From IMG/VR virus record IMGVR_UViG_3300010883_000001, positions 62,001 through 126,000 of that record: a DNA stretch of 64,000 nt; one strand, 5' to 3'. Positions 13,946 through 59,334 of the stretch are shown one piece after another (the stretch's first letter is position 1; each line of letters opens with the position of its first letter). This stretch comes from a virus. A program made the position numbers and the translations under genes. The notes below the pieces were generated by a model, which had not been told where the DNA came from, made no database searches, and saw only the letters and a program-made list of their open reading frames with translations.

Positions 13946-13978
13946 CCCCCCCGGCTTGCCGGGGGGGTTTCTTTTTTT
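13946..13978 (+). terminator. Strong intrinsic terminator after the fibre block
   Basis: A perfect 10-base-pair stem (CCCCCCCGGC / GCCGGGGGGG) with a TT apex is followed by TTTCTTTTTTT. It lies 25 bases after the stop of the 1070-residue fibre gene. It is by far the clearest rho-independent terminator in the window and separates the fibre block from the genes that follow. Confidence 0.93.
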
Positions 13979-14999: not shown

Positions 15000-15379
15000 T
15001 GGCTATAACTTCTCCCATAGTAACTCAGGGTTTTGGCCCAAATGTCGACGGCGGAATGATCATTACTATGGGTTTTGGTGGTTTTATAGCTGCTGTTAAG
15101 GAAGTGGCTGAAGATATTATTCGTGCTGCTGGAAAAGCTGCAAGAAGAATAATACCGGATGTTTTATACTCAATAAAGGCATCTCTTATAGAGGTTAATG
15201 GAGAAGAATTATCATATCCAATAGTGGGCTCCGTTAGTAAAATGGCAAAGGTGGATGAATCACCCCTTAGGGGGATAATTACTTTTGTATCTTCTTCAGT
15301 AAGACAGGTGAGTAAACCAATACTTATTGAAGCGAGGCCTCTATTTATTAAGTATTTTAGACCCGGTACAAAAGATTAG
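14999..15379 (+). CDS. Hypothetical protein (126 aa)
   Basis: Starts with a Gly/Ile/Thr-rich hydrophobic stretch (about residues 1-30: V-T-Q-G-F-G-P and G-G-F-I-A-A-V), followed by basic helices (AAGKAARRIIPDVLYSIKAS) and a beta C-terminus. Start and stop overlap the gene before it. Hydrophobic glycine-rich N-termini of this sort occur in small phage tail proteins; the assignment is a guess. Confidence 0.5.
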   Translation: MAITSPIVTQGFGPNVDGGMIITMGFGGFIAAVKEVAEDIIRAAGKAARRIIPDVLYSIKASLIEVNGEELSYPIVGSVSKMAKVDESPLRGIITFVSSSVRQVSKPILIEARPLFIKYFRPGTKD

Positions 15380-15394
15380 TTTGGAGTTTATAAA

Positions 15395-15853
15395 TTGAGT
15401 GATTTTGATCTGATATTAGACGATGAAAATGAGTTGAAATTTGCCGTGACAATTGAAGGCGCAGAACAAGGAAGTCCAACGGCCAGGCTTCATATATCTA
15501 CCAATAAGGGATATGATCTTGTTTTTGAGGGTGAAAGATCTTCGGACGGTGAGTTATCAGTTGTTGTTCCCCCCCTCAAAGGCGTAATAGCTGAAGGAAG
15601 TTATTCTGCAGAGCTTGAAGTCATTATAGATGAACGGGTTTTTAAGCCACTCACAATGACGACTAATTTTAAGCGTGCCATCAAGGTGGAGGCTGCCGTA
15701 AAGACAATAATACAATCCAGACAGCCGAGTGTTTCTGCATCCTTATTGACGGAGGAGCCTAGGGAGGTGTCTTCGGTTAAGAAAAAAGTAGAAAAGAAAC
15801 CTGTCAAGAAATCAGCTAGTTTAGATGATATATTGAAGGAGCTGTCCAAATGA
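15395..15853 (+). CDS. Hypothetical Ig-like/beta protein with Lys-rich tail (152 aa)
   Basis: TTG start chosen because GGAG is about 8 bases upstream. Residues 1-100 alternate beta strands typical of a small sandwich domain (LKFAVTIEG, YSAELEVII, PLTMTTNFKRAI). Residues 115-152 are Lys-rich and end in a helix (SASLDDILKELSK), like a flexible linker plus docking helix. It overlaps the following membrane protein by 4 bases. Confidence 0.55.
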   Translation: MSDFDLILDDENELKFAVTIEGAEQGSPTARLHISTNKGYDLVFEGERSSDGELSVVVPPLKGVIAEGSYSAELEVIIDERVFKPLTMTTNFKRAIKVEAAVKTIIQSRQPSVSASLLTEEPREVSSVKKKVEKKPVKKSASLDDILKELSK

Positions 15854-16116
15854 TAGAAGCAATTATTTATAGTTTGGCTGGTTTTTATCTCTTAGGCTGT
15901 GCAACGACTGCTGGGTTAGCGTTGATTGGGCATTCTTTTTCTTGCTGGGTATTAAAGAACGTAGTTAGGGGGAGTAAGCAGTCTGAGGTTAAGATATTAT
16001 CGTGTAAGTTGAAGGTTAGATCAAGGGATTCTTTAAGACGATGTTATTTGTGGCCGCTATGGGTTATAGTTTCAATAAAAATATTGTTTGAAAAAGAAAA
16101 CTTAATTGATCAATGA
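15850..16116 (+). CDS. Small membrane protein (88 aa)
   Basis: Two hydrophobic segments: residues about 4-35 (I-I-Y-S-L-A-G-F-Y-L-L-G-C and following) and about 66-78 (LWPLWVIVSIKIL), with a basic connecting loop (KNVVRGSKQSEVK, SRDSLRRC). It overlaps both neighbours. No family is recognised; an inner-membrane protein made during infection is the simplest reading. Confidence 0.55.
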   Translation: MIEAIIYSLAGFYLLGCATTAGLALIGHSFSCWVLKNVVRGSKQSEVKILSCKLKVRSRDSLRRCYLWPLWVIVSIKILFEKENLIDQ

Positions 16117-16885
16117 AAGAAAAATACGTTCTGCATCACGCCTACTAAAATATTCCCTCTCAGAGCTCAGGGATACAAAAAATCAGTTTGATACATATAA
16201 TGAAGACTTTTTAAGTGCTGTTGACCATGCTCGTAGAAACTTAAAAAAAGAAACCCGCGATTACGAGAAATTTAAAGAGCAGTCTGGATCTAGTGGTTCT
16301 ACTGAGCCGGCGGACAAGAATAAAGTTAAAGAGGAGACTATCAAGAAGGACAAGGAAGATCCCATCACGGAGACTGTCAATGATATGGATAGCCTTAAGT
16401 CAACAGTTGATCCGGTATATAGAAAATTATATAAAAAAATAGCGATGAAGACACATCCTGATAGAATGAAAACAATGTCGTGGTTGGAAGATTATGAAAA
16501 AGATGCGTTGGTTTCAATATTCCAGGAGGCAAGATCTTCATTAGAGAATGCTGATAAAAATGGATTGCTATGTTCTGCATGTGAAGTTGATATTGATCTA
16601 ATGCAGGTAGGGTTTAATGAAGATGATCTTTTACGTAGATTACAGAAGCAGGCAAAAAAATCAAGTGAAAATTTAAATAGCATATCAAGAAACTATATCT
16701 GGTCATGGGGTGAGACAAAAGATATAGTTACAAAGACGAAAATATTACAGGCATATATGCAACATTTAGGGTACCCTCAAATACCCGAGAGTCTTCTACG
16801 CGATGTTATTGATACATATCGTGACTCCACAGGCCGATCACGAAGAAAAGTTGGAAAAAGACCAAAAAGATTAATTAGACGTTGA
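16106..16885 (+). CDS. J-domain-containing protein (259 aa)
   Basis: A J-domain sits in the middle (about 95-165): P-V-Y-R-K-L-Y-K-K-I-A-M-K-T-H-P-D-R, with the HPD tripeptide at 117-119 that stimulates DnaK ATPase, followed by a longer helix III than usual. Upstream is a charged coiled coil with an acidic/basic linker (50-95). Downstream a region ends in strongly basic SRRKVGKRPKRLIRR. There is no zinc finger or C-terminal substrate-binding domain, so it is a specialised co-chaperone, possibly recruiting host DnaK to a phage complex. The TTG start at 16106 overlaps the previous gene; no ATG is available further in without losing helix I of the N-terminus. Confidence 0.75.
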   Translation: MINERKIRSASRLLKYSLSELRDTKNQFDTYNEDFLSAVDHARRNLKKETRDYEKFKEQSGSSGSTEPADKNKVKEETIKKDKEDPITETVNDMDSLKSTVDPVYRKLYKKIAMKTHPDRMKTMSWLEDYEKDALVSIFQEARSSLENADKNGLLCSACEVDIDLMQVGFNEDDLLRRLQKQAKKSSENLNSISRNYIWSWGETKDIVTKTKILQAYMQHLGYPQIPESLLRDVIDTYRDSTGRSRRKVGKRPKRLIRR

Positions 16886-16917
16886 TCAATTTAATGTTTT
16901 ATTATATAATAAAACAT
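16882..16917 (+). promoter_or_regulatory. Promoter embedded in a perfect palindrome
   Basis: TTGATC (16882-16887), 17 bases, then TATAAT (16905-16910). The -10 lies inside a perfect 24-base palindrome (16894-16917; half-site ATGTTTTATTAT) whose right end covers the AT of the next start codon. Transcription would begin within a base or two of ATG 16916, giving a leaderless mRNA, and a dimeric repressor bound to the palindrome would block both. It drives the long replication/nucleotide operon. Confidence 0.6.
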
Positions 16918-17116
16918 GCAGACTTACACAACAAAACAAATAAAAGCAGCGATTGATGAAACCTTGCATAGGCATTCAACGCTACAGATTAATTTAGCAT
17001 CAAATAGAGCCAGGGAAGTTTTGGCATTAGAAATAATCCAAAAACTTAAACCTTATCTATCTCCTGCTGATCCAGCGGACGTTAGTAAGTTTTGGCCAAT
17101 GGATGAGGAGATATAG
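16916..17116 (+). CDS. Hypothetical small protein (66 aa)
   Basis: First gene of the replication/nucleotide operon. No Shine-Dalgarno is possible if transcription starts at the embedded promoter. Predicted mostly helical (TTKQIKAAIDETLHRHSTL; REVLALEIIQKLKPYL) with a Pro/Trp tail. Family unknown; leader position and the palindrome make an autoregulatory role possible but nothing in the sequence proves it. Confidence 0.55.
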   Translation: MQTYTTKQIKAAIDETLHRHSTLQINLASNRAREVLALEIIQKLKPYLSPADPADVSKFWPMDEEI

Positions 17117-17118
17117 GG

Positions 17119-17904
17119 ATGCCAGAAGGACCGGAAGTAAAGTTGTGTGGTGAGCGTTTAGCTTCAAATATTTCAGGTCAAACACTTAAATATATAGAGA
17201 TAATTTCAGGAAGATATTCTAAAAAGACACCTGGCGGAATTGAATTATTTGGAAAAGAATTGCCTACAACGGTTGTAGGTCCTGGTGTTCATGGGAAATT
17301 TATATATTGGATTATGAAAAATAATTATTTTCTATATAATACCCTGGGGTTAACCGGTGCATGGTCTTTGGAACAAGGTCCTTATTCTAGGGTTAAATTT
17401 TCATTTGAGAATCTAGATATTTTTTTTGATGATAAGAGAAATTTTGGCACTCTAAAGTTTGTTAAAGGAAAAGGGAATCTTTTATCAAAATTACAATCTT
17501 TAGGGCCAGATATGCTATCAGGGGACGTTGAAATATCTCTTTTTATTGATAGGCTAAGAGAGAAGAGCTCATGGGAAATTACAAAAGCATTAATGAACCA
17601 ATCCGTGGTTGCTGGGATTGGGAATTATATAAAATCGGAGTCACTATGGAAGACAAAAATTAATCCACACTCTAGGGTTTGTGATTTAGATAACGATACT
17701 TTAGCAGATCTATGCGTTAATATTAGAGATATAATGAGTGATAGCTATAAATCTCAAAAAGAAGGTGACAACTCGTTTAAATTATCGGTATATTCTAGGA
17801 AGAATGATCCTCATGATAATGAGATTATAAAGGAAAAAACAGAGGATGGTAGAACAACATACTGGTGTCCATCCGTACAACATAAAGGGACGATAAATGA
17901 ATAG
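17119..17904 (+). CDS. Fpg/Nei-family DNA glycosylase with zincless finger
   Basis: Base-excision repair glycosylase/AP lyase. Catalytic N-terminus PEGPE (Pro2 nucleophile, Glu3), a lysine in GVHGKF (about 59) for the beta hairpin, and a helix-two-turn-helix with GIGNYIKSESL (about 170-180). At the C-terminus the finger keeps the DGRTTYWCP hairpin with its DNA-binding Arg, but the cysteine pairs of the zinc finger are absent (K-N-D-P-H-D-N where C-x2-C is expected), so it is of the zincless type known from viral and plant enzymes. 261 residues matches the family. GGAG lies upstream. It overlaps the next gene by 8 bases. Oxidised purine versus pyrimidine preference cannot be decided. Confidence 0.87.
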   Translation: MPEGPEVKLCGERLASNISGQTLKYIEIISGRYSKKTPGGIELFGKELPTTVVGPGVHGKFIYWIMKNNYFLYNTLGLTGAWSLEQGPYSRVKFSFENLDIFFDDKRNFGTLKFVKGKGNLLSKLQSLGPDMLSGDVEISLFIDRLREKSSWEITKALMNQSVVAGIGNYIKSESLWKTKINPHSRVCDLDNDTLADLCVNIRDIMSDSYKSQKEGDNSFKLSVYSRKNDPHDNEIIKEKTEDGRTTYWCPSVQHKGTINE

Positions 17905-18112
17905 TTTAAAACTTTCTGATGATACGATCGCACAAATTGCAAAAATATTGCAGGTTGCAATTCTTACTGGAACTGACGTGGTGGATAACCTTCGCCAGTT
18001 AGAGCTAGTTACTAGTGAGGACGGCCGGCTAACGATGTCTGAGGATTATGCAAAAAATTTCGAAACTAATATCACCTCGATGTTGGAGGGGATAAGCGAA
18101 GAAAATGGGTGA
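17897..18112 (+). CDS. Conserved phage hypothetical protein (71 aa)
   Basis: Small acidic helical protein with LSDDTIAQIAKILQVAIL followed by TGTDVVDNLRQLEL, a pattern I associate with small conserved proteins of marine T4-like phages; function unknown. Overlaps its neighbours on both sides (ATGA-type coupling), so it is translated with the Fpg/Nei and MazG-like genes. Confidence 0.6.
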   Translation: MNSLKLSDDTIAQIAKILQVAILTGTDVVDNLRQLELVTSEDGRLTMSEDYAKNFETNITSMLEGISEENG

Positions 18113-18494
18113 TAAAAAAAAGGAGGATATGCTAATCAGCATATTCAGACTACGGGAAGAATTTATGCTAAGGATTAATGAGAAAATACCTGGTGTATAT
18201 CCCCCTTGGCCAGTCGTATTATCAGACAAGGCATCACAACAATCATTAAGAGAATCTGCACTTAAGGGTGTGGAGGAAATGTTTGAAGCATTACAACACT
18301 TAAAAAACTGGAAACCACATAGGGTAACAGAAATAAAAGAATTTAATAGAGAAGAGTTTCTTGAGGAGACTGTCGACGCATTTAATTATTTCTTTTCTTT
18401 GCTTGTTATGATGGGTGTTACACCTGAAGAGTTTTTTAATGCATATGTTAAGAAAGATACTACGATTCATAGAAGGCTAGAAGTAGGTTATTAA
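18105..18494 (+). CDS. MazG-like/dimeric dUTPase-type NTP pyrophosphatase
   Basis: All-alpha NTP pyrophosphatase superfamily. Metal-binding motifs: E57-E58-x-x-E61 (GVEEMFEAL) and, 26 residues on, E87-E88-x-x-D91 (LEETVDAF), followed by an FFSLLVMMGVTPEEFF helix and a K-K-D-T-T-I-H-R-R-L tail typical of dimeric dUTPases. It probably removes dUTP to prevent uracil incorporation; dCTP is an attractive alternative given the cytosine-modification genes downstream (T4 uses a dCTP/dUTPase). Starts inside the previous gene and abuts the UDP-glucuronate decarboxylase gene (shared base at 18494). Confidence 0.72.
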   Translation: MGDKKKEDMLISIFRLREEFMLRINEKIPGVYPPWPVVLSDKASQQSLRESALKGVEEMFEALQHLKNWKPHRVTEIKEFNREEFLEETVDAFNYFFSLLVMMGVTPEEFFNAYVKKDTTIHRRLEVGY

Positions 18495-19516
18495 TGAATA
18501 TTATCGTGACCGGTGCTGCAGGTTTTATAGGGCAAAACCTTACTAAGTGTCTATTAGATTCAGGACATAAGGTTATTGGGATCGATAATTTCTCTACAGG
18601 CGATAAAAACGTTTTTAAAGAATTCTCTTCAGAATATAAGAGCAGTTTTTTACCAATGCCTTTTGACGTAACACGAGAAGATAGTTGGAGAACCATGCTG
18701 ACTGTTGTACACAGGTTTTTTCGGGGCCAAAAGGACATATCAATATATCATCTTGCATGTCCAGCGTCTCCTCCAGCATATCAAAAATATCCTCTTCGTA
18801 CATTGGATACTTCATACTTGGGTACTAGAAACTGTTTAGAGTTTGCTGCATCTGTAAATGCAAAATTTTTATTTGCTTCTACATCGGAAGTTTACGGAAA
18901 CCCGTCTTGTAATCCGCAGTCGGAAGAATATTACGGTGATGTAAATACCGTTGGCCCCAGGGCTTGTTACGATGAAGGAAAAAGGGTCGCTGAGACTCTA
19001 TGTTATGAGTATAATAAGTGTATGGGAACTGATGTGACGATTGTTAGAATATTCAACACGTATGGTCCTGGAATGAAAGCTGATGACGGCAGAGTTGTTA
19101 GCAACTTTATAAATCAGGCAATCACAGGTAAGGAATTAACGATATATGGTGATGGCTCACAGACTCGAAGTTTTTGTTTTGTATCTGATATGGTTGATGG
19201 ATTGATTTTAGCTATGGGATCTGAGTATTTTGGGCCGATTAATTTAGGGAACCCAAATGAGATTACTGTTTCCAAGTTAACAAATATAGTATTAGAAAAA
19301 TGTAATGCACGAAATGCTATTAATTATTACCCATTACCTCAGGACGATCCATGCATCAGGAGACCCAACATAAATAAAGCTAAGTGGTTATTGGGGTGGG
19401 TACCCAAAGTTAGTCTAGATGAAGGTCTAGATAGGACGATACAATACTTTAGAGGTCTTTTACGTGTAGAACCTCAAGAACCATCATATAATTTAAAAAT
19501 TGGTTATGAAAAATGA
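18494..19516 (+). CDS. UDP-glucuronate decarboxylase-like (UDP-xylose synthase) SDR
   Basis: Extended short-chain dehydrogenase. NAD motif TGAAGFIG at 6-13. The stretch LACPASPPAYQKYP, then SEVYGNPSCNPQ, then V-G-P-R-A-C-Y-D-E-G-K-R-V-A-E-T is diagnostic of UDP-glucuronic acid decarboxylases, with catalytic Y and K in YDEGK (about 159-163) and the FNTYGP and DGRVVSNF stretches also kept. It converts UDP-glucuronate to UDP-xylose via a 4-keto intermediate. 340 residues fits the bacterial/short type. It lies between a nucleotide pyrophosphatase and DNA polymerase genes rather than in a polysaccharide cluster. A UDP-sugar epimerase and glycosyltransferase follow in the same operon. Confidence 0.87.
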   Translation: MNIIVTGAAGFIGQNLTKCLLDSGHKVIGIDNFSTGDKNVFKEFSSEYKSSFLPMPFDVTREDSWRTMLTVVHRFFRGQKDISIYHLACPASPPAYQKYPLRTLDTSYLGTRNCLEFAASVNAKFLFASTSEVYGNPSCNPQSEEYYGDVNTVGPRACYDEGKRVAETLCYEYNKCMGTDVTIVRIFNTYGPGMKADDGRVVSNFINQAITGKELTIYGDGSQTRSFCFVSDMVDGLILAMGSEYFGPINLGNPNEITVSKLTNIVLEKCNARNAINYYPLPQDDPCIRRPNINKAKWLLGWVPKVSLDEGLDRTIQYFRGLLRVEPQEPSYNLKIGYEK

Positions 19517-22500
19517 AAAAAACACCCTCAAGATTCGTAGGTCTTCATGCACATTCTGGATTTTCTACATTTGATGGATTAGGATACCCTCAAGAACATA
19601 TTGATTATGTAAAATCAAATGGAATGGACTGTTGGGCACTTACTGACCATGGTCACATGAATGGTTTTGCACATGCTTATTTACATGCTGAAAAATTAAA
19701 AAAGCTTGGTGAGAATTTTAAATTTATTCCCGGGTGTGAAATGTATGTTCATCCGGATTTAGATGTATGGAGTCTAGACTACAAGCTAGCCCGGGCGGCA
19801 AAGCGAGGTGATCATGAGTCGATCACAAAACTTAGACAGCAAAGGGAGTCCATAGTAACCCCTATTCTTGCAGTAACCGATCGCGATGATGAGATTATAG
19901 ATGTTGATATAAATGAAGGAGGTATGACTGTAGAGAATGAGGAGGAGACTAAGTCTGCAAAATTTTATGATCCCGTTAAACGCCGGCATCATTTAGTTGT
20001 ACTACCTAGAACTAGTGAGGGTTTAAAACGTTTATTTTCATTGGTCTCCAAAGGTTATCTTGAGGGATTTTATAGATTTCCGCGTGTAGATTATAAGATG
20101 TTAAAAGAGGCCGCTAAAGGTGGTCATTTAATGCTTAGTACGGCATGCCTAGGAGGCCCCGTCGCATATGAAGTATTCAGGCATTTACAAGAAGTTTCAT
20201 TTAATAATCTTAATGCTTCTCTTTTAGATGATAGATCATTAATGGAGAAGACAATCCTTGGTGTTGGAAATGCATATGGATCACTGTGTGACGCAGTAGG
20301 GCGTGAGAACGTTATGCTTGAGTTACAGTTCAATAAACTCCCAGCTCAACATTTGGTGAATAGAGCTATACTTGAGTATTCTAGAAGAAACAATTTATCA
20401 GATCAATTAATAGTAACTTGCGACTCGCACTATGCAAATCCAGAACATTGGAAAGAGAGAGAATTATATAAGAAGTTAGGATGGTTAAATTATCGTGATT
20501 ATGATCCTTCTTCGTTACCACAAAGTCGCGACGATTTAGAGTGTGAATTATATCCGAAAAACGAAACACAGGTCTGGGATTCATATACAAATACATCTTC
20601 TGGGTATGATTTTTATAATGATGAAGAGATATGTAGCGCTATTGAGAGAACGCATGATATAGCACACGAAATGATAGGCGATATCACAGCCGATAAAAAA
20701 ATGAAGCTGCCGTCATATATAGTACCTCAAGGCACTGATGAAAACACGGCACTTCTAGAAGCTTGTAAAAAAGGATTAATAGAGAAGGGCTTACATGCTA
20801 ACAATGAATATATAGACCGCTTAAAGCTAGAGCTCTCTGTAATACGCAGTAAGGATTTTTCTAGATATTTTTTGACGATGAAGTCAATTCTTGATATTGC
20901 AAGAGAACGCATGTTGATAGGACCGGGTCGAGGATCCGCAGCTGGTAGTCTGGTTGCATATGTACTTGGAATAACAAACGTTGATCCTATAGAATATGGA
21001 TTATTGTTTGAAAGATTTTTATCTGTCCATCGTGAGGGCGCACCAGACATTGATACTGACGTAGGCGATAGGGATCTTCTGATTGATCTACTCAAGGCAA
21101 ATTTTGGTGATCAGAATGTTGTTCCTATTTCAAATTATAACACTTTTAAATTGAAATCATTAGTAAAAGATATATCACGTTTTTATGGTATACCCTTTGA
21201 CGAAGTAAATAAGGCACTGGCACCGGTTGAGAATGACGTAAAAAAAGTAGTCTTTACAAAGGGTACCGACAAAAACCTTTTCGTGTTATTGTATGAAGAT
21301 GCCATTGCACACTCGGCATCATTTCGAAGTTTTATTGAAAAGTATCCTGAGGTAGCTGAACCAATCGAAATTTTATTTAAGCAAAATAAGTCCTTGGGTC
21401 GACATGCTGGCGGAGTAATAATCAGTGAAAATATTCCGGAGCAGATGCCCTTGATACTCGCAAGGGGTGAGCTACAGACCCCTTGGGTCGAAGGGATGCA
21501 TTATAAACATCTGGAAGAGTTTGGGTGGATTAAATTTGATCTTCTTGGATTAGAAACCCTACGAATAATCCAACGTTGTATAGAGCTAGTTTTGAAGAGG
21601 CATGAGGGAAATGAGAACCCGACTTTTGTTGATGTGAAGAAATGGTTTGACCAAAACATGGATCCGAAAGTCATAGATTTTAATGATGAAGAAGTGTTTC
21701 GAAACATATATCATCAAGGAAAATGGGCTGGAATATTTCAGGCTACGCAACGAGGCGCACAGGCATTTTTTAAGAAAGGAAAGCCTTTGAGTATTATTGA
21801 TGTTGCTACGCTTACATCAATTTATCGCCCAGGTCCGTTAAGTGCTAATGTGCATAAGATATATTTGGGATCAAAGGACAATCCAGAAGATATAGATTAT
21901 CAACATGATCTTATTAAACAGGTTCTGGAACCGACATATGGTGCGATAATCTTTCAAGAGCAAGTTATGGAGTTATGCAACGTTGTAGCCGGTTTCCCTC
22001 AGGAAGACTGTGATAAGGTTCGTAGAACAATCATGAAGAGATCTGCGTCTAAGGCAGATGCTATGAAAGCCGAGGCTGAAGCTTTAAAGAACAGATTTGT
22101 TGAGGGTGCTGTCACAAATGGCGTGGCACAGGATGTTGCTAGCGAATTATATGAGAAAATCTTATTTTTCTCCGGATATGGTTTTAATAAATCTCATGCC
22201 GTATCTTACGCAGTTGATTCTTACTATTGCGCATGGTTGATGCACTACTATGAGGAGGAATGGCTGTGTGCTTATCTTGAGGCTATGTCAAGTACTCCGG
22301 ATAAGTTGGCAAAAGCATCTAGCGAGATTAAAAAGCTGGGATATAAGACGGTACCTCTAGACATAAATTATGCTGAAAAGACCTGGACAATATTAGACGG
22401 GAAGAAATTTATGCCATCATTCTTATCATGCAAAGGTATAGGACTAGCCGCAATCGACGAGATTATGAAAAATAGACCGTATAGCTCAGTTGATGATTTA

Positions 22501-23112
22501 CTATGGGATGAATCAGGTAAGTGGCGACATTCAAAGTTTAATAAGCGTGCGTTAGGCTCACTTATTCGTGTTTGTGCATTTGGGTCCATGGGCTTAGTTG
22601 GCGAAAGGAAGGCATTTTCTTCATATAAGCAGATGCACGAAATACTAATAGATAAAAACCAAGATATAAAAAAGTCAACAAGGAAAGATCCATGGAGAGG
22701 TAAAAAAGCAATGACTGAATTGCTGGTTGAATCAGATACTTCAAGCGAATGGACATCTTATGAGCTAGCAAAGAATAGTATTGAGCTGTTGGGATCATTT
22801 AGTTCGAAATTACTAGTGGATGACGAGTTACAAAAAGAGCTACAAAAAAGAGGCATTCACACAATTGATGAATATCACTCAAAAGACCTATATTGGTTTA
22901 TTGTAAAGAAGGCAATCCCAAAGTTGACAAAGAATAAAAAGCCGTATCTACTATTGACAATATCTGGTACTGAAGGATCGGAAAGTCGGATGTTCTACTG
23001 GGGATGGAATGGAAACACAGATATATCAGAGTTTTCAGTTTGTGTGGCAGAAATTGACAGGAGCGATTTTGGATTTTCAACTAGATCCGGAAAGATAAAG
23101 GTAATTAGATAA
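19513..23112 (+). CDS. dnaE: DNA polymerase III alpha subunit (DnaE-type), C-family replicase
   Basis: The phage replicative polymerase, 1199 residues. PHP domain at the N-terminus (HAHSGFSTFDG, TDHGHMNGF, PGCEMYV, HHLVVLPRTSEG, LSTACLGGPV, CDSHYANP) keeps most metal ligands, so PHP exonuclease activity is possible. Palm: GPGRGSAAGSLVAYVLG (about 471) and P-D-I-D-T-D (about 515) with the catalytic aspartates; GRHAGGVIISE; YRPGPLS (about 771); GYGFNKSHAVSYA in the fingers; a helix-hairpin-helix KGIGLAAIDEIM near 975; a small C-terminal OB-like part. An acidic insertion of about 80 residues lies in the PHP domain (about 80-155). Overlaps the upstream stop (ATGA). No clamp loader or clamp is seen in the window. 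Confidence 0.95.
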   Translation: MKKTPSRFVGLHAHSGFSTFDGLGYPQEHIDYVKSNGMDCWALTDHGHMNGFAHAYLHAEKLKKLGENFKFIPGCEMYVHPDLDVWSLDYKLARAAKRGDHESITKLRQQRESIVTPILAVTDRDDEIIDVDINEGGMTVENEEETKSAKFYDPVKRRHHLVVLPRTSEGLKRLFSLVSKGYLEGFYRFPRVDYKMLKEAAKGGHLMLSTACLGGPVAYEVFRHLQEVSFNNLNASLLDDRSLMEKTILGVGNAYGSLCDAVGRENVMLELQFNKLPAQHLVNRAILEYSRRNNLSDQLIVTCDSHYANPEHWKERELYKKLGWLNYRDYDPSSLPQSRDDLECELYPKNETQVWDSYTNTSSGYDFYNDEEICSAIERTHDIAHEMIGDITADKKMKLPSYIVPQGTDENTALLEACKKGLIEKGLHANNEYIDRLKLELSVIRSKDFSRYFLTMKSILDIARERMLIGPGRGSAAGSLVAYVLGITNVDPIEYGLLFERFLSVHREGAPDIDTDVGDRDLLIDLLKANFGDQNVVPISNYNTFKLKSLVKDISRFYGIPFDEVNKALAPVENDVKKVVFTKGTDKNLFVLLYEDAIAHSASFRSFIEKYPEVAEPIEILFKQNKSLGRHAGGVIISENIPEQMPLILARGELQTPWVEGMHYKHLEEFGWIKFDLLGLETLRIIQRCIELVLKRHEGNENPTFVDVKKWFDQNMDPKVIDFNDEEVFRNIYHQGKWAGIFQATQRGAQAFFKKGKPLSIIDVATLTSIYRPGPLSANVHKIYLGSKDNPEDIDYQHDLIKQVLEPTYGAIIFQEQVMELCNVVAGFPQEDCDKVRRTIMKRSASKADAMKAEAEALKNRFVEGAVTNGVAQDVASELYEKILFFSGYGFNKSHAVSYAVDSYYCAWLMHYYEEEWLCAYLEAMSSTPDKLAKASSEIKKLGYKTVPLDINYAEKTWTILDGKKFMPSFLSCKGIGLAAIDEIMKNRPYSSVDDLLWDESGKWRHSKFNKRALGSLIRVCAFGSMGLVGERKAFSSYKQMHEILIDKNQDIKKSTRKDPWRGKKAMTELLVESDTSSEWTSYELAKNSIELLGSFSSKLLVDDELQKELQKRGIHTIDEYHSKDLYWFIVKKAIPKLTKNKKPYLLLTISGTEGSESRMFYWGWNGNTDISEFSVCVAEIDRSDFGFSTRSGKIKVIR

Positions 23113-24200
23113 TGCGGGTCTTAGTAGTCGGAGGAGGTATATTTGGTACCACGATAGCATCAGAACTATCAGAGCATGGAAATGATGTAACATTAATTGA
23201 AAAAGAAAATACCTTGATGACGGCAGCCAGCAGGGTAAATCATAATCGTGTTCATTTTGGCTATCACTATCCTCGTAGTCCAGAGACGGCAAGACAATGT
23301 CTAGACAGCATTCCCAGTTTTTTAATGCATTATGGTGATTCTGTAGTATCGGATTTCCCTAACTATTATACGATTGCTAATGAAGGTAGCTTCGTAACCC
23401 CGGAACAGTTTATTGATTTTTGTAAAGAGGTTAAAATTGATTTCTACGAACAATATCCACCTAAGCATCTTCTTAGAAGAGACAAGCTAGCAGCTAGCTT
23501 TAGGGTAAGAGAGCCTATTTTTAGTACCAGTCGATTAGCACAGCTAGTTAACGATCGATTAGATCGAGCAGGTGTGAACGTTCTTGTAAGGACACAAATT
23601 ACTAAGGCTAAGAAAAATCCTGGAGGTGGATACTCTGTAATGATAAATGGTGCTAGGTGTATATTTGATAAGGTTATTAATGCAACATACGCCGGCCTGA
23701 ATACTGTAAATAAGGTGTTTAATGTCCGGCCTCATGAACTACGGTTTGAGGAGACAGTAGTACCAGTATTCAAGTTCAGTCACACACCTGTTGGGCTGAC
23801 TATAATGGATGGTCCCTATTGTACTATAATGCCTCATGGAAATATTTCGGAAGAGTTTTTACTTTGGCATGTTGATGGCGGAGTTTTATCTCATGCTACT
23901 GACATTAAAAATATTCGTAGGGTTGTGTCATCTGATGAAGAGATCGCGGCTCGTATAATTGAGATGTCTGCTGAGTTTATGCCTTTTATGGAGGGCGTGG
24001 AATTTCTTTCATTGATGAAAACAGTAAAGACTGTCTATGAGAATAAGTATGATGCAAGAATGTCTGAGGTTCATACGTACGACGACAGTCCGGACTTTAT
24101 CTCAGTATTATCTGGGAAGATAATGTGTGCACCTCAGATTTCATATCAGGTTCGAGAATTAGTTAGGGGTAAGAAGTATCACAGGAGTATTTTGGTATGA
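23112..24200 (+). CDS. FAD-dependent oxidoreductase (DAO-like)
   Basis: N-terminal Rossmann FAD motif G-G-G-I-F-G at 7-12 with the acidic end LIEKE, then N-H-N-R-V-H-F-G-Y-H-Y-P-R-S around 43-56, a signature of a DAO-family branch common in bacterial surface-polysaccharide clusters. A middle substrate domain and the C-terminal SGKIM flavin segment are present. 362 residues, one shared base with dnaE. The substrate is unknown; it could oxidise a sugar or a modified base or nucleotide. Its place between dnaE and sugar/nucleotide genes favours a role in the same pathway, but that is inference. Confidence 0.72.
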   Translation: MRVLVVGGGIFGTTIASELSEHGNDVTLIEKENTLMTAASRVNHNRVHFGYHYPRSPETARQCLDSIPSFLMHYGDSVVSDFPNYYTIANEGSFVTPEQFIDFCKEVKIDFYEQYPPKHLLRRDKLAASFRVREPIFSTSRLAQLVNDRLDRAGVNVLVRTQITKAKKNPGGGYSVMINGARCIFDKVINATYAGLNTVNKVFNVRPHELRFEETVVPVFKFSHTPVGLTIMDGPYCTIMPHGNISEEFLLWHVDGGVLSHATDIKNIRRVVSSDEEIAARIIEMSAEFMPFMEGVEFLSLMKTVKTVYENKYDARMSEVHTYDDSPDFISVLSGKIMCAPQISYQVRELVRGKKYHRSILV

Positions 24201-27422: not shown

Positions 27423-28412
27423 TTGCATATTGTCTCTCATTCGTTTAACGACTGCTATAATCAGTTGGCGAAATATTTGTTAACAAGCGGGGAATATGAT
27501 GTATCCCCTAGAGGCCAGAGGGTTAGAGAATCTTTATGCGTAAGTTTTAAGATTGAAAACCCTAGGGATAGACTAATCTATAATCCGGCGAGAAAATTTT
27601 CTTTCACATATGTTATAGCGGAGATGCTTTGGTATATTTCTGGAAATAATAAAACGTCGTGGATATCTCATTATTCTAAATTTTGGAATAAAATATCTGA
27701 TGATGGTAAGACGGCCAACTCTGCATATGGTGCTAGGATATTTGAGAAAAATGAAAGAATCGCAGGATCCCAATTTATTCAGTGGGATTTTATAAAGGAG
27801 GAGTTAAGAAAAGATCCGGATTCTAGAAGGGCAATAATTCATATCCGCGTTCCGGAGGATTCTATAAAGGCAAAGCTTGATGTCCCCTGTACAATATCAA
27901 TACAATACTTTATAAGATCTGAAAAATTACATTGCATAGTCAATATGAGATCTTCTGACTTAATTTTAGGGATAAGCTACGATATTCCTGCGTTCACATT
28001 TATGCAGGAGATGATGGCAAATGAATTGGGGGTTGATGTAGGCTCTTATATGCATGTCAGTAATTCATTGCATGTATACGAGAGACATTTTGATATGCTA
28101 GAAAAGATAGCATCAACAGAAAATATTAATAAGTCTTATTCATTAAGTTCAGGAGCTAGAAAACTTAAATTACCACAGGGTGATCTACCCATATATAGTT
28201 TAATGCAGTTTGAGGACGCTATGCGAAAAACCACCCATAATAAAACCGCATTAGATTTATTAGATTCATCGATTTGTTTATTCGATGATTATTGGAATGA
28301 TTGGCTACGAGCGCTAGCAGCGCATAGGGTTCTTAAAAATGGTGATAAACATCTTCACGATAATATATTATATAGGTGTGATCGCTTGAGGGGGTGTTAT
28401 GAGAGATCCTGA
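27423..28412 (+). CDS. ThyA-family enzyme with dCMP-type active site (probable dCMP hydroxymethylase)
   Basis: Thymidylate synthase fold, 329 residues, TTG start with GGGG upstream. Active-site spacing matches E. coli ThyA exactly: nucleophile Cys156 (V-P-C-T), Arg176, Ser177 and Asp179 at +20, +21 and +23, His217 and Tyr219 at +61 and +63, Glu67 as catalytic Glu. At +31, where thymidylate synthases have Asn (E. coli N177, binding the uracil ring), this protein has Asp187 (G-I-S-Y-D-I-P). The same Asn-to-Asp change defines T4 dCMP hydroxymethylase and converts TS to dCMP specificity. Since ThyX (58571) can make dTMP, this enzyme most likely forms 5-hydroxymethyl- or 5-methyl-dCMP. Confidence 0.82.
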   Translation: MHIVSHSFNDCYNQLAKYLLTSGEYDVSPRGQRVRESLCVSFKIENPRDRLIYNPARKFSFTYVIAEMLWYISGNNKTSWISHYSKFWNKISDDGKTANSAYGARIFEKNERIAGSQFIQWDFIKEELRKDPDSRRAIIHIRVPEDSIKAKLDVPCTISIQYFIRSEKLHCIVNMRSSDLILGISYDIPAFTFMQEMMANELGVDVGSYMHVSNSLHVYERHFDMLEKIASTENINKSYSLSSGARKLKLPQGDLPIYSLMQFEDAMRKTTHNKTALDLLDSSICLFDDYWNDWLRALAAHRVLKNGDKHLHDNILYRCDRLRGCYERS

Positions 28413-43241: not shown

Positions 43242-45108
<1,867 letters not shown>

Positions 45109-45441: not shown

Positions 45442-46215
45442 ATGTCTGATATGTTACAACATTTTTTTAAAGAAGTGGGAAAATCGCCGCTTCTAACCAG
45501 AGAAGAAGAAGTTGAATTATCAAAAAGAATAGAAAAGGGTGACGCCAAGGCAAGGGATAGGATGATTAGATCTAATCTTCGCCTTGCAATTAGCATTGCA
45601 AAAAAATATCAAAACAAAGGCTGTTCATTGGAGGATTTAATTCAAGAATCCAGTATTGGTCTTATGAAAGCAGTAGAAAGATTTGACTGGAGGAAGGGTT
45701 TTAAATTTTCTACTTATGCGTGTTGGTGGATTCGACAATCTGTTAGGCGTCATATTGCCAGTCATTCAAGCTCTATTAAGCTTCCTACATACGCAAAGAA
45801 TATGTTATGGAAATCGAGGCAGATGTCGCTTGAGTATGAAAAAGAGTTTGGTGTAAAACCTACAAAAAAAGAGGTTGCTGATCTATTAGGGGTATCCGTC
45901 TCTACAATTGACTCCATATTTGCGTGTTCCGGCCCTACAGATTCACTTGATAGAAATCTGAGCTATCGTTCTAGGCAAACATCAAGAACATTAGCTGAAG
46001 TTCTAGTTGACGAAAATGCCTCTGGTGTTGATGATAAACTTGACAGTGCAACGCTTTTATCGTCAATTCGTGATGCTTTAGACAGTCTTTCGGATCGCGA
46101 ACAAAAAATTGTACGAATGAGATTTGGAATATCTGAGGATGATAATAATATTAAAAATTATCCTTTAAAAAAATCAGAGTTTGATAAAATTAAGTCTGCA
46201 TCAGGAGTTAGTTGA
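45442..46215 (+). CDS. RNA polymerase sigma-70-family factor lacking region 4.2
   Basis: Redirects host RNA polymerase to phage promoters. Region 1.2-like start (M-L-Q-H-F-F-K-E-V-G-K-S-P-L-L-T), region 2 with K-Y-Q-N-K-G, L-E-D-L-I-Q-E-S-S-I-G-L, F-D-W-R-K-G-F-K-F-S-T-Y-A-C-W-W-I-R-Q-S (core binding and -10 melting, about 75-110), region 3 (about 120-190), and region 4.1 S-L-S-D-R-E-Q-K-I-V-R-M-R-F-G-I (about 213-228). It then ends within 30 residues that show no helix-turn-helix, exactly where 4.2 should begin. The next gene carries a 4.2-like motif. Upstream GGAGAG. 257 residues. Confidence 0.93.
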   Translation: MSDMLQHFFKEVGKSPLLTREEEVELSKRIEKGDAKARDRMIRSNLRLAISIAKKYQNKGCSLEDLIQESSIGLMKAVERFDWRKGFKFSTYACWWIRQSVRRHIASHSSSIKLPTYAKNMLWKSRQMSLEYEKEFGVKPTKKEVADLLGVSVSTIDSIFACSGPTDSLDRNLSYRSRQTSRTLAEVLVDENASGVDDKLDSATLLSSIRDALDSLSDREQKIVRMRFGISEDDNNIKNYPLKKSEFDKIKSASGVS

Positions 46216-46935: not shown

Positions 46936-47109
46936 ATGTTATTTCCACGCTGGCTTTGGGGTACATGTGTATTTCTTAATGTTCTTTTGACTTCATTCAA
47001 TTTATACATTGGAAATAGGGGATATGCTGTTATGGCAACATTAACTGCATTTGTTTGTTTATTTAATTTTATTTCCGTGGGGAAGAGAGAAGAAGAGAAT
47101 GGCACTTAG
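46936..47109 (+). CDS. Small two-helix membrane protein (57 aa)
   Basis: An unannotated-size gene filling the gap before def and overlapping its start by 11 bases. Two hydrophobic stretches (W-L-W-G-T-C-V-F-L-N-V-L-L-T-S-F-N-L-Y and M-A-T-L-T-A-F-V-C-L-F-N-F-I) with a short basic loop (GNRG). No clear ribosome site. Small membrane proteins of this type are common in T4-like phages; function unknown. Confidence 0.5.
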   Translation: MLFPRWLWGTCVFLNVLLTSFNLYIGNRGYAVMATLTAFVCLFNFISVGKREEENGT

Positions 47110-47767
47110 AGATATTCGTCAATATCCGGATAAGGTTTTAAGAGAGAGATCTGAGGATTTAGATCTGAGTTCTGATTTAGCATGTCAGATTAGAGATGAC
47201 CTGATAGATACATTATCACTTGTTTCCGGGGCCGGCTTAGCCGCGCCCCAGATTGGGTTTTCGTATAATGCGGTGATTATAAGACCTTCAATTATGAAAA
47301 TTCATAATCCTGATCCTAGTGAGAAAAATCCGGATTTTTGGTTTCTTGGAAACCCAGTAATAACGGTCTTATCTGATTCTGAGAAGATTGTATGGAAAGA
47401 AGCATGTTTATCCGTACCCGTCGTTTCGGGTCCGGTCGCAAGAGAGTCATATATTAAGATTAATTACGAAAATATAAAGGGTGAAAAGAAAGAGGTTACG
47501 CTTGGGCCACCTATGTCAATGGTTATGCAACATGAGGTGGATCATCTAGAAGGCAAGCTTTATATTGATAGAGTTCAAGGTGTTTCCAAGTACATGATAA
47601 ATAAAAAATTAAAGAAAGCATTTCGAAAGGAAAAGAAGAATCACGAGCAACTAGTTGAAACAATGGCCTCAATTTCCAGACCTCAATTAACTAAGTTACA
47701 TAATGAAAAAAGAAAGAGCCTTCGGGAAAAGAGAAAGAATAAAAAGAAGTCGAGAAGTAAGGGATAA
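47099..47767 (+). CDS. def: Peptide deformylase with basic C-terminal extension
   Basis: Removes the N-formyl group of nascent proteins. Motif 1 G-A-G-L-A-A-P-Q-I-G (44-53), motif 2 E-A-C-L-S (101-105; Ala replaces the usual Gly), motif 3 Q-H-E-V-D-H-L-E-G (144-152): metal ligands Cys103, His145, His149 and catalytic Glu146 are all present. Start at ATG 47099, because the protein then begins MALRDIRQYPD as in the family. Residues 165-222 are a Lys/Arg-rich helix not found in cellular deformylases, possibly for ribosome docking. The dnaJ gene follows after 2 bases. Confidence 0.93.
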   Translation: MALRDIRQYPDKVLRERSEDLDLSSDLACQIRDDLIDTLSLVSGAGLAAPQIGFSYNAVIIRPSIMKIHNPDPSEKNPDFWFLGNPVITVLSDSEKIVWKEACLSVPVVSGPVARESYIKINYENIKGEKKEVTLGPPMSMVMQHEVDHLEGKLYIDRVQGVSKYMINKKLKKAFRKEKKNHEQLVETMASISRPQLTKLHNEKRKSLREKRKNKKKSRSKG

Positions 47768-47769
47768 AA

Positions 47770-48801
47770 ATGTCACATGATCCTTACTATAGAGAGTTAG
47801 GTTTAAAATCCTCAGCATCAGACTCTGATATTAAAAAAGCTTATCGCAAGCTTGCAATGAAATATCATCCTGATAAGAATGAAGGCAATAAAGCGGCTGT
47901 AGAAAAATTTAAGAAAATTTCTCATGCATATGCAGTCCTAACTGGAAAAGAATCACCTGAAAATGATGCATCAAACTTTAATCCATTTGCTCATGGCACT
48001 GGATTAGATGATATATTTAAAGAGTTTTTTGGTGGTTTCAGCACCGGTTTTGCAAGAGACTTTTCAGATTTTGAGAGGCCCCAGACCAGACCACGCCGCG
48101 ATCTAGATATTCATAGCAACATAAATATTGATTTTCTAGATGCAGTTAGAGGTTATGACAGCGTAATAAGTGTAAATACAAATAAAACATGTAACCCATG
48201 CCAAGGTACTGGTTCTGATGGCGGTCATTTAGTTTCATGTGAAACGTGTGACGGAACAGGGTCTAGCGTAATACGTAGGGGTCTTATGGTGATTCGGCAG
48301 GCATGTCCGTCCTGCGCTGGTAGTGGTCGTCAACCGGCATCATTATGTAGAATATGCTCTGGCCGTGGTTTTGGTACCGGCCTAACAGAGGTTCGTGTTA
48401 CGATTCCTCCAGGAGTAGACTCAGGAAATATTTTAAGAATGGTTGGGCTTGGAAACGAATTCTTAGGATCTGTTGGAGATCTTTTTCTTCAAATTGGTGT
48501 TGGAGATTCATCGGAGTTTTCTAGGGATGGATATAATATTTCTTCAACATATGATTTGAAGTATACTGATTTTATCCTGGGCGCAAGAGAGAATATAAAA
48601 ACAATATACGGTAATATCTCAGTAACAATCCCCCCAAATACTAGGCCTGACAGTAAATTAAAAATCTCAGGTAAAGGTATCACAAACCCATCTACGGGTG
48701 CAAGAGGGGATCATTTTTTAAGGTTAAAAGTATCCGTACCTTCGCACATAACAGATAAGCAACGAAGCGCTATCATGGTGTTAAGAGGTTTAGGGTTGTA
48801 A
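47770..48801 (+). CDS. dnaJ: DnaJ co-chaperone
   Basis: Full-architecture type I DnaJ, 343 residues. J-domain 4-70 with H33-P34-D35; Gly/Phe-rich linker (NPFAHGTGLDDIFKEFFGGF); zinc finger with four C-x-x-C-x-G-x-G units (C-N-P-C-Q-G-T-G, C-E-T-C-D-G-T-G, C-P-S-C-A-G-S-G, C-R-I-C-S-G-R-G), and two C-terminal beta domains with V-R-V-T-I-P-P-G-V-D-S-G and V-T-I-P-P-N-T-R-P. No DnaK or GrpE is encoded here, so it must work with host DnaK. It ends just before a phage-type promoter. Confidence 0.94.
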   Translation: MSHDPYYRELGLKSSASDSDIKKAYRKLAMKYHPDKNEGNKAAVEKFKKISHAYAVLTGKESPENDASNFNPFAHGTGLDDIFKEFFGGFSTGFARDFSDFERPQTRPRRDLDIHSNINIDFLDAVRGYDSVISVNTNKTCNPCQGTGSDGGHLVSCETCDGTGSSVIRRGLMVIRQACPSCAGSGRQPASLCRICSGRGFGTGLTEVRVTIPPGVDSGNILRMVGLGNEFLGSVGDLFLQIGVGDSSEFSRDGYNISSTYDLKYTDFILGARENIKTIYGNISVTIPPNTRPDSKLKISGKGITNPSTGARGDHFLRLKVSVPSHITDKQRSAIMVLRGLGL

Positions 48802-48807
48802 TTATAT

Positions 48808-48838
48808 TCGTGCAATTTAGTTTTTTCTGTGGTATAAT
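48808..48838 (+). promoter_or_regulatory. Phage-type promoter after dnaJ
   Basis: TCGTGCAA (48808-48815), 14 bases, TGGTATAAT (48830-48838). Located in the 63-base gap before a small membrane protein gene, whose AGGGAGG ribosome site follows at 48851-48857. The 14-base spacer differs from those of the two sister promoters. Confidence 0.8.
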
Positions 48839-58074: not shown

Positions 58075-58566
58075 ATGACTAAGAAAGAAGATGGGACGGT
58101 TGTTGGTTTTACGTGTGGATCTTTTGATTTGATGCATGCAGGGCATGTTCTTATGTTCGAAGAGTGTAAAAAATATTGTGATAAGCTCGTAGTTGGTGTA
58201 CAATCAGATCCATCAGCTGACAGGCCTGAGTCAAAGAATACACCCATCCAGACTTTTGTCGAGAGAATTTTGCTAGTAAAGTCAGTGAGATGGATTGATG
58301 ACGTTATACTTTATCATACCGAGGAAGATCTTTATAGAATATTAGAGGAATTGAAACCCAGCGTTAGGATAATTGGCGAAGACTGGAGGGATAAAGAGTA
58401 TACAGGTCATAATTTACCTATTGATGTTATTTTTAATTCTAGATCCCATACATACTCAACTAGCGAATTGAGGGAAAGGGTTTATGATAGAGAAAAAAAG
58501 AAAAAAGATAAAGAGAAAAATGTAGGTCTATCTCATGGTACCGGTTTACCTACAGGAAGCGATTAG
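58075..58566 (+). CDS. Cytidylyltransferase-family nucleotidyltransferase
   Basis: Alpha/beta nucleotidyltransferase: G-S-F-D-L-M-H-A-G-H at 14-23 (HxGH motif) and S-H-T-Y-S-T-S-E-L-R-E-R-V (about 127-139; ISTSxxxxR-like motif). 163 residues, about the size of glycerol-3-phosphate cytidylyltransferase; RfaE-type ADP-heptose and FAD synthetases are alternatives. The Lys-rich tail (about 143-153) is unusual. It transfers a CMP or AMP group to a phosphorylated alcohol or sugar, fitting the sugar-nucleotide theme of the phage. Confidence 0.8.
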   Translation: MTKKEDGTVVGFTCGSFDLMHAGHVLMFEECKKYCDKLVVGVQSDPSADRPESKNTPIQTFVERILLVKSVRWIDDVILYHTEEDLYRILEELKPSVRIIGEDWRDKEYTGHNLPIDVIFNSRSHTYSTSELRERVYDREKKKKDKEKNVGLSHGTGLPTGSD

Positions 58567-58570
58567 TTTT

Positions 58571-59296
58571 ATGAAAATAGATGATGCCGCCGAAGTGAAC
58601 CGGCAATACTTATATCACGATAATGATGGATTTGTTGAATATGTCCAACACATGGGTGATGATGCCACAATCGTTAATGCAGCCAGGGTTTCTTTTGGTA
58701 AACAGGTGGCTGAGTTATCTAATAAAGACAAAAAATTGATTAAATACCTTGTAGCGCATAAGCATACGTCTACTTTAGAACATAATGTTTTAACAATGCG
58801 GTTTAGGGTACCCTTGTTTGTTGCGCGGCAACATATGAGGCATCGTACTTGGAGTTTTAATGAAATTTCTCGTAGATATACAAGCATTGATATGTCAATG
58901 TACGAGCCAGACATGTTCAGGGTTCAACATTCTCAGAATAGACAGGCATCCGAAGATGATGGGTTGATTAATCCCTTATGCGTGTCGACAACAGCATATG
59001 ATATTGGGATATCCGGCTCAGCGTCAAGTCTAGTAAAGAGACACCACAAATCATCAATGTTACTGTATGAGTCTTTAATGCAAGCCGGTGTTTGTAGGGA
59101 ACAGGCCCGCGGAGTTCTACCTCAAAATATGTATACAGAATATTTGGGAACAGTCAATCTAAATAATCTGATCAAATTTATACATTTGCGTATCCATGAG
59201 GGTGCACAGTGGGAGATAAGAAGGGTTGCTGAGTCTTGTTACCATATAGCTAGCTCTTTGTGGCCGGATGTTATGAAATGTGCGGTGAAAAATTAA
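58571..59296 (+). CDS. thyX: Flavin-dependent thymidylate synthase
   Basis: Methylates dUMP to dTMP with FAD and NADPH. The ThyX signature R-H-R-T-W-S-F-N-E-I-S-R-R-Y spans 90-103 (RHRxxSxNExSxRY). Also present: N-A-A-R-V-S-F-G-K (36-44), H-T-S-T-L-E-H (65-71), R-E-Q-A-R-G-V-L-P (about 178) and R-I-H-E-G-A-Q-W-E-I-R (about 210). Start placed at ATG 58571 since the upstream in-frame ATG lies in the preceding gene. 241 residues. Its presence shows that the ThyA-family protein at 27423 is not needed for dTMP. Confidence 0.94.
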   Translation: MKIDDAAEVNRQYLYHDNDGFVEYVQHMGDDATIVNAARVSFGKQVAELSNKDKKLIKYLVAHKHTSTLEHNVLTMRFRVPLFVARQHMRHRTWSFNEISRRYTSIDMSMYEPDMFRVQHSQNRQASEDDGLINPLCVSTTAYDIGISGSASSLVKRHHKSSMLLYESLMQAGVCREQARGVLPQNMYTEYLGTVNLNNLIKFIHLRIHEGAQWEIRRVAESCYHIASSLWPDVMKCAVKN

Positions 59297-59303
59297 TCTT
59301 AAT

Positions 59304-59334
59304 TCGTGCAAATTTTATTAAGTTATGGTATAAT
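59304..59334 (+). promoter_or_regulatory. Phage-type promoter after thyX
   Basis: TCGTGCAA (59304-59311), 14 bases, TGGTATAAT (59326-59334), identical spacing to the promoters at 45078 and 48808. It drives the three small genes 59359-60115 and probably those beyond. Confidence 0.8.

Follow-up and report, generated by a model that had tools for sequence, protein, structure and literature searches.

A putative leaderless promoter within a perfect 24-bp palindrome of an uncultured phage, and a promoter class of its phage group

In the record of an uncultured phage (145,181 bases), a perfect 24-bp palindrome, ATGTTTTATTATATAATAAAACAT (16894-16917), overlaps a promoter-like sequence and the ATG of a small gene in a region where nearly all genes run rightwards. 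Positions are those of the window, the whole stretch of 64,000 nucleotides that was analyzed. This arrangement raises the question of whether a promoter begins its transcript at or next to the start codon, what the palindrome contributes, and how many of the genes that follow depend on this site.

Predicted promoter elements, palindrome and start codon at 16882-16918

The upstream gene (16106-16885, + strand) carries a J-domain-like HPD motif, below Pfam's cut-off, and has distant homologues in ten relatives. Its stop codon TGA (16883-16885) is overlapped by the forward -35 element TTGATC (16882-16887, + strand), which matches TTGACA in 4/6 positions and is followed after a 17-nt spacer by the forward -10 element TATAAT (16905-16910, + strand). 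The two elements together form a 10/12 match of the sigma-70 type, with a spacing inside the 16-18 nt range. The ATG (16916-16918) of a 66-aa gene of unknown function (16916-17116, + strand) starts five bases after the -10, and the whole gap between the two genes amounts to 30 bases. The promoter elements were found exactly where the initial annotation had placed them, and its perfect 24-base palindrome, which takes in the -10 and the first two bases (AT) of the start codon, was likewise confirmed; its axis falls between 16905 and 16906, just after the first base of the forward -10.

Promoter-type matches numbered 63 in the region vs 57 in shuffles, so that the promoter match taken alone is weaker evidence than the palindrome. 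With the E. coli sigma-70 matrix, TTGATC/TATAAT was the top + strand intergenic match in the record and ranked 19 among 290,302 positions on both strands, and among 228 TATAAT sites the 16882 site alone had TTGA at 17 nt. Most genes of the record have a Shine-Dalgarno (SD) sequence; the 66-aa gene is without one, its predicted SD pairing being +1.7 kcal/mol vs a genome median of -7.1 kcal/mol. The usual rule of seven bases after the -10 would place +1 at T16917, and a start exactly at A16916, the sixth base after the -10, needs a distance of six bases, which is allowed but short.

In first-order Markov simulations of the window, palindromes with 11-bp arms occurred about 0.07 times per window, and none with 12-bp arms occurred in 30 simulated windows. 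The 145-kb record holds one other perfect palindrome with 12-bp arms, which is GC-rich and terminator-like, and a few occur in other loci of the phage group. No second copy within 3 mismatches was found in the whole record, a half-site search for a second operator returned the 16894-16917 site alone, and an exact 22-mer of the palindrome was absent from the viral collection. On the basis of the rarity of the palindrome, the sigma-70 rank and the missing SD, the 16882 site is probably a sigma-70-type promoter whose product is leaderless or nearly so.

The palindrome could act in three ways, through mirrored -10 elements, through an RNA hairpin that covers the AUG and through a site for a dimeric protein; its 10-bp core suffices for the first, and a hairpin or a dimer site would require the outer arms too. 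Folding predicts a 10-bp hairpin for the RNA of the palindrome (-8.6 kcal/mol, z -2.7); the first two bases of the AUG, A and U, are paired in its stem, which consists almost entirely of A-U pairs. When 60-base segments were folded, the AUG showed no unusual sequestration (rank 42/153).

Relatives of the locus and a promoter class of the phage group

Megablast of 15000-24000 against phages gave no match. Homologues of Fpg (formamidopyrimidine-DNA glycosylase, Fpg/Nei) were found in 64 viral loci, and the polymerases of the relatives were found within these loci. Only L018 among them has the order J-domain-like gene, gene of about 61 aa and fpg, and a search of viral contigs with the 66-aa and the J-domain-like proteins returned nothing beyond L018; a match of P0001 in G003 (L089) was dropped, its genomic context being unrelated. 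The 61-aa homologue in L018, the one weak homologue of the short 66-aa gene, has an SD leader, and the predicted leaderlessness is thus not conserved. At the corresponding site L018 has an imperfect dyad only, with no perfect palindrome, and the palindrome was also absent from the regions upstream of fpg in the other loci; as judged from these sequences, it is not conserved in relatives.

The position of the promoter is shared more widely. In L020 and L033, the arrangement GTGTAA-17-TATAAT-6 nt-ATG (L020:2988-3025, L033:2153-2190) stands directly after the homologous J-domain-like gene, beginning 5 nt past it, and the gene behind it is HhH-GPD-like and also without an SD. In both relatives the ATG starts at the seventh position past the -10, so that its A is the predicted +1, one base further than in the present record. 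A promoter position after the J-domain-like gene appears common to this record, L020 and L033, and homologues of that gene mark the position in L018, L020 and L033. In several further relatives, fpg itself is immediately preceded by a TATAAT promoter. The absence of an SD, the position in L020/L033 and the promoters before fpg make the leaderless start that had been proposed likely, with the exact 5' end being a prediction.

A promoter class, NTGTAAA-16-TATAAT, was found across the phage group, whose members usually encode a sigma factor too. A count over the record and 51 dereplicated loci placed NTGTAA 17 nt before TATAAT on the coding strand 32 times vs 0.64 expected and on the other strand once vs 0.62 expected; in 27 whole viral records (G000-G030), exact class matches numbered 118 vs 10 for the reversed pattern. 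Class sites lie mostly 18-40 nt before genes, a gene follows in 26/30 of the sites read in detail, and those with no following gene are about as many as chance predicts. The predicted +1 base is an A in 26/34 sites. The window contains class promoters at 45080-45108, 48810-48838, 59306-59334 and 19464-19492. We also observed in L037 (4383-4430) a class promoter whose -10 belongs to the 5' side of an inverted repeat that covers the SD with its other arm; this repeat is possibly a read-through lock like that of T4 gene e.

The phage encodes a sigma-70 family factor (45442-46215, + strand) with regions 1.2, 2 and 4. Of the records examined, 11 encode a strong (over 70 bits) sigma-70 region 2, and all 11 have the motif; none of the four motif-less records above 150 kb (G021, G025, G028 and G029) has a strong region 2. 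In several records the motif stands closely upstream of the sigma gene itself, and in this record the best class match, 45080-45108, sits one small gene upstream of it. We infer that the phage sigma factor is a candidate reader of the class; shared ancestry could be an alternative cause of the link between factor and motif. Around the sigma gene, a Cpn60-type chaperonin with hits in two stretches (43433-45085), a peptide deformylase (47051-47767) and a full DnaJ (47770-48801) are also phage-encoded. Two unrelated thymidylate synthase families occur in this one phage, a ThyA-type enzyme at 27423-28412, possibly a pyrimidine-modifying relative, and a Thy1/ThyX enzyme at 58535-59296.

The forward 16882 site has TTGATC in place of the NTGTAA of this class, and with a class model trained on relatives only it scored 3.2 and ranked 261 of about 290,000. 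This poor fit of its -35 to the phage group's own promoter model counts against the explanation proposed below.

Probable reach of the proposed promoter and alternative readings

Considering the above results, we have proposed a plausible model, which as a whole is given about an even chance of being correct. A sigma-70-type promoter would be packed into the 30 bases between the J-domain-like gene and the 66-aa gene, with RNA polymerase starting on A16916 or no more than one or two bases from it. The resulting mRNA, leaderless or nearly so, would carry the 66-aa gene, then fpg (17119-17904, + strand) and the next small genes. On a longer message initiated upstream, the palindrome would fold as a hairpin over the AUG; because of this hairpin and the missing SD, the 66-aa gene would not be translated from the read-through message and its own promoter would be its only route. 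Owing to its strong SD, fpg would be translated from both messages. A dimer bound with its centre at the -10 would keep the promoter shut, and for this reason a regulator site is the favoured further role of the palindrome.

That regulator, which could be encoded elsewhere, is the least certain part of the model, and its binding is put forward tentatively, at rather less than an even chance. An inverted repeat overlapping the promoter, as in an operator of the acuR type, is present at 16894-16917, and it is possible that the palindrome is a repressor operator. A cognate DNA-binding first gene of the acuR type was not found, the first product being the 66-aa protein. The initial annotation had suggested this first product and an RHH-like protein (34476) for a gel shift, and neither gained support as a regulator. 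For the 66-aa protein, no Pfam, PHROG or PDB relative was found; its model is a helical hairpin (mean pLDDT 73) with which a fold search gave nothing significant, and no DNA-binding fold is recognizable in this prediction. Protein 34476 had no RHH or other convincing Pfam match, with two chance-level hits below the cut-off, no match in PHROGs and no PDB relative by sequence, and its model is a low-confidence beta-alpha-alpha arrangement that is at most compatible with RHH.

The domain of the 16882 promoter probably comprises the 66-aa gene, fpg, mazG and the next small genes; directly before fpg there is no obvious promoter in this record. On the left, a strong, GC-rich, terminator-like hairpin at 13946-13967 (CCCCCCCGGCTTGCCGGGGGGG followed by a T-rich stretch) closes the preceding unit. 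The palindrome had earlier been read as an operator switching the whole 13-kb replication operon, in keeping with genes that run in one direction with little space between them from 16916 to about 29830. However, the DNA polymerase gene (19513) has a separate promoter, GTGTAG-17-TATAAT (19464-19492, + strand), 20 nt before it, which scored 12.9 and was fourth on the + strand in the model trained on relatives. Promoters before the polymerase are strong in L007, L008, L009, L011, L014, L016, L019, L020, L029 and L038 and weaker in other relatives; such a promoter is present in the majority of the relatives with a polymerase start that could be examined. With 19464-19492 as a separate promoter for the polymerase gene, the replication genes are unlikely to depend on the 16882 promoter alone. 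Many genes of the 13-kb operon are moreover sugar or redox enzymes, and no candidate repressor with support was found, so a switch of the whole operon is highly improbable.

The palindrome also offers a reading in which its mirrored -10s let polymerase bind in either direction, rightwards via TTGATC into the 66-aa gene and leftwards via GTGTAA, where the RNA would be antisense to the upstream genes. The candidate minus-strand promoter consists of the mirrored TATAAT (16901-16906, - strand) and, 17 nt from it, GTGTAA (16924-16929, - strand), an exact match to the class -35; it scored 13.5 and ranked 5 of about 290,000 in the model trained on relatives only, a high score owed to the mirrored copy of TATAAT in the palindrome and to the GTGTAA 17 nt from it. 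A -35 block as good as this is expected at 0.16% of positions, and the predicted divergent starts, 23 bp apart, show one common bidirectional-promoter distance (PMC12825309). The site is nevertheless the sole antisense exact match in the analyzed loci, as many as chance would give, in a class whose sites mostly precede genes, and no minus-strand gene lies to its left, where no start codon of a 50-codon frame occurs within 90 nt. Two-way binding would moreover need the 10-bp core alone, leaving the outer 7 bp of each arm unexplained, and we regard it as doubtful. A likeness between the reverse promoter and a site in G002 (13/17 spacer bases) was set aside, as other site pairs reach the same value. 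It is very unlikely that the mirrored -10 is common to a host-type TTGATC promoter and an outward GTGTAA promoter of the phage sigma class as a direction switch; if it were so, the build-up of sigma would turn polymerase round, so that the leaderless gene would fall silent and antisense RNA would be produced.

Two further readings do without a bound protein or without any function. The palindrome may be kept only for hiding the AUG on read-through messages, as the predicted pairing of its A and U would allow and as T4 genes e, soc and 49 do with such locks (PMC3014915). Across class promoters, pairing of the bases ahead of the transcript start with the SD or start region was slightly raised, at 0.267 vs 0.217 in a swapped control (sd 0.021), a weak effect for the group, from which no general link between promoters and hairpins is claimed. 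With the stem almost all A-U, the start no accessibility outlier and no SD, so that extra locking of the 66-aa gene may be unnecessary, a lock alone is unlikely. Alternatively, an AT-rich -10 region could have been perfected by chance or by a template-switch mutation, and the promoter may still work. The palindrome occurs in one record only, neither in L018 nor elsewhere in viral contigs, and perfect 12-bp-arm palindromes do appear now and then in the phage group, which makes this a possibility of limited weight; the simulated windows, however, yielded none, and the palindrome coincides with both promoter and start codon.

Significance and comparison with known systems

The promoter class is of more use than the palindrome, as it is readable off uncultured phage genomes, sits before phage sigma and polymerase genes and tracks with the presence of the sigma factor, and it makes the transcription programme of an uncultured phage group testable. 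The proposed leaderless promoter within its palindrome appears a fairly ordinary design. Only a small number of operator-controlled leaderless genes have been described, several of them coding for repressors. One from a phage, at the head of a group of DNA-repair genes, would extend this set, with L020 and L033 available for comparison.

In the acuR-acuI-dddL operon of Rhodobacter sphaeroides, acuR is leaderless and an operator over its promoter has been proven by mutation (PMC3017554). The likeness extends to a first gene without an SD, a TTGATT/TATTAT promoter close to the ATG, an inverted repeat overlapping the promoter and lower translation of the first gene than of those behind it, which for the present locus is predicted. 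In contrast, acuR encodes a TetR-type repressor and its repeat has a 6-bp spacer, whereas the first product here has no recognizable DNA-binding fold and the 24-bp palindrome is perfect. Lambda cI from PRM and Tn1721 tetR, as cited in PMC3017554, are leaderless repressor genes that likewise start at or next to the AUG with operator sites at the promoter, but here a gene of unknown function heads a group of repair and nucleotide genes.

T4 gene e resembles the predicted hairpin in that the transcript of its own promoter is without the 5' arm of the start-region hairpin, making the long message locked and the short one open (PMC3014915); it differs in having an SD and late promoters, while the 16916 site has no SD and an A-U-rich stem. 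Bidirectional promoters with a shared -10 have overlapping mirrored -10s (PMC10268837, PMC12825309), and the predicted divergent starts at this locus, 23 bp apart, fall within the 7-25 bp range of a shared -10, a likeness of geometry only. In those known promoters the -10 is pseudo-symmetric, whereas here the symmetry spans 24 bp.
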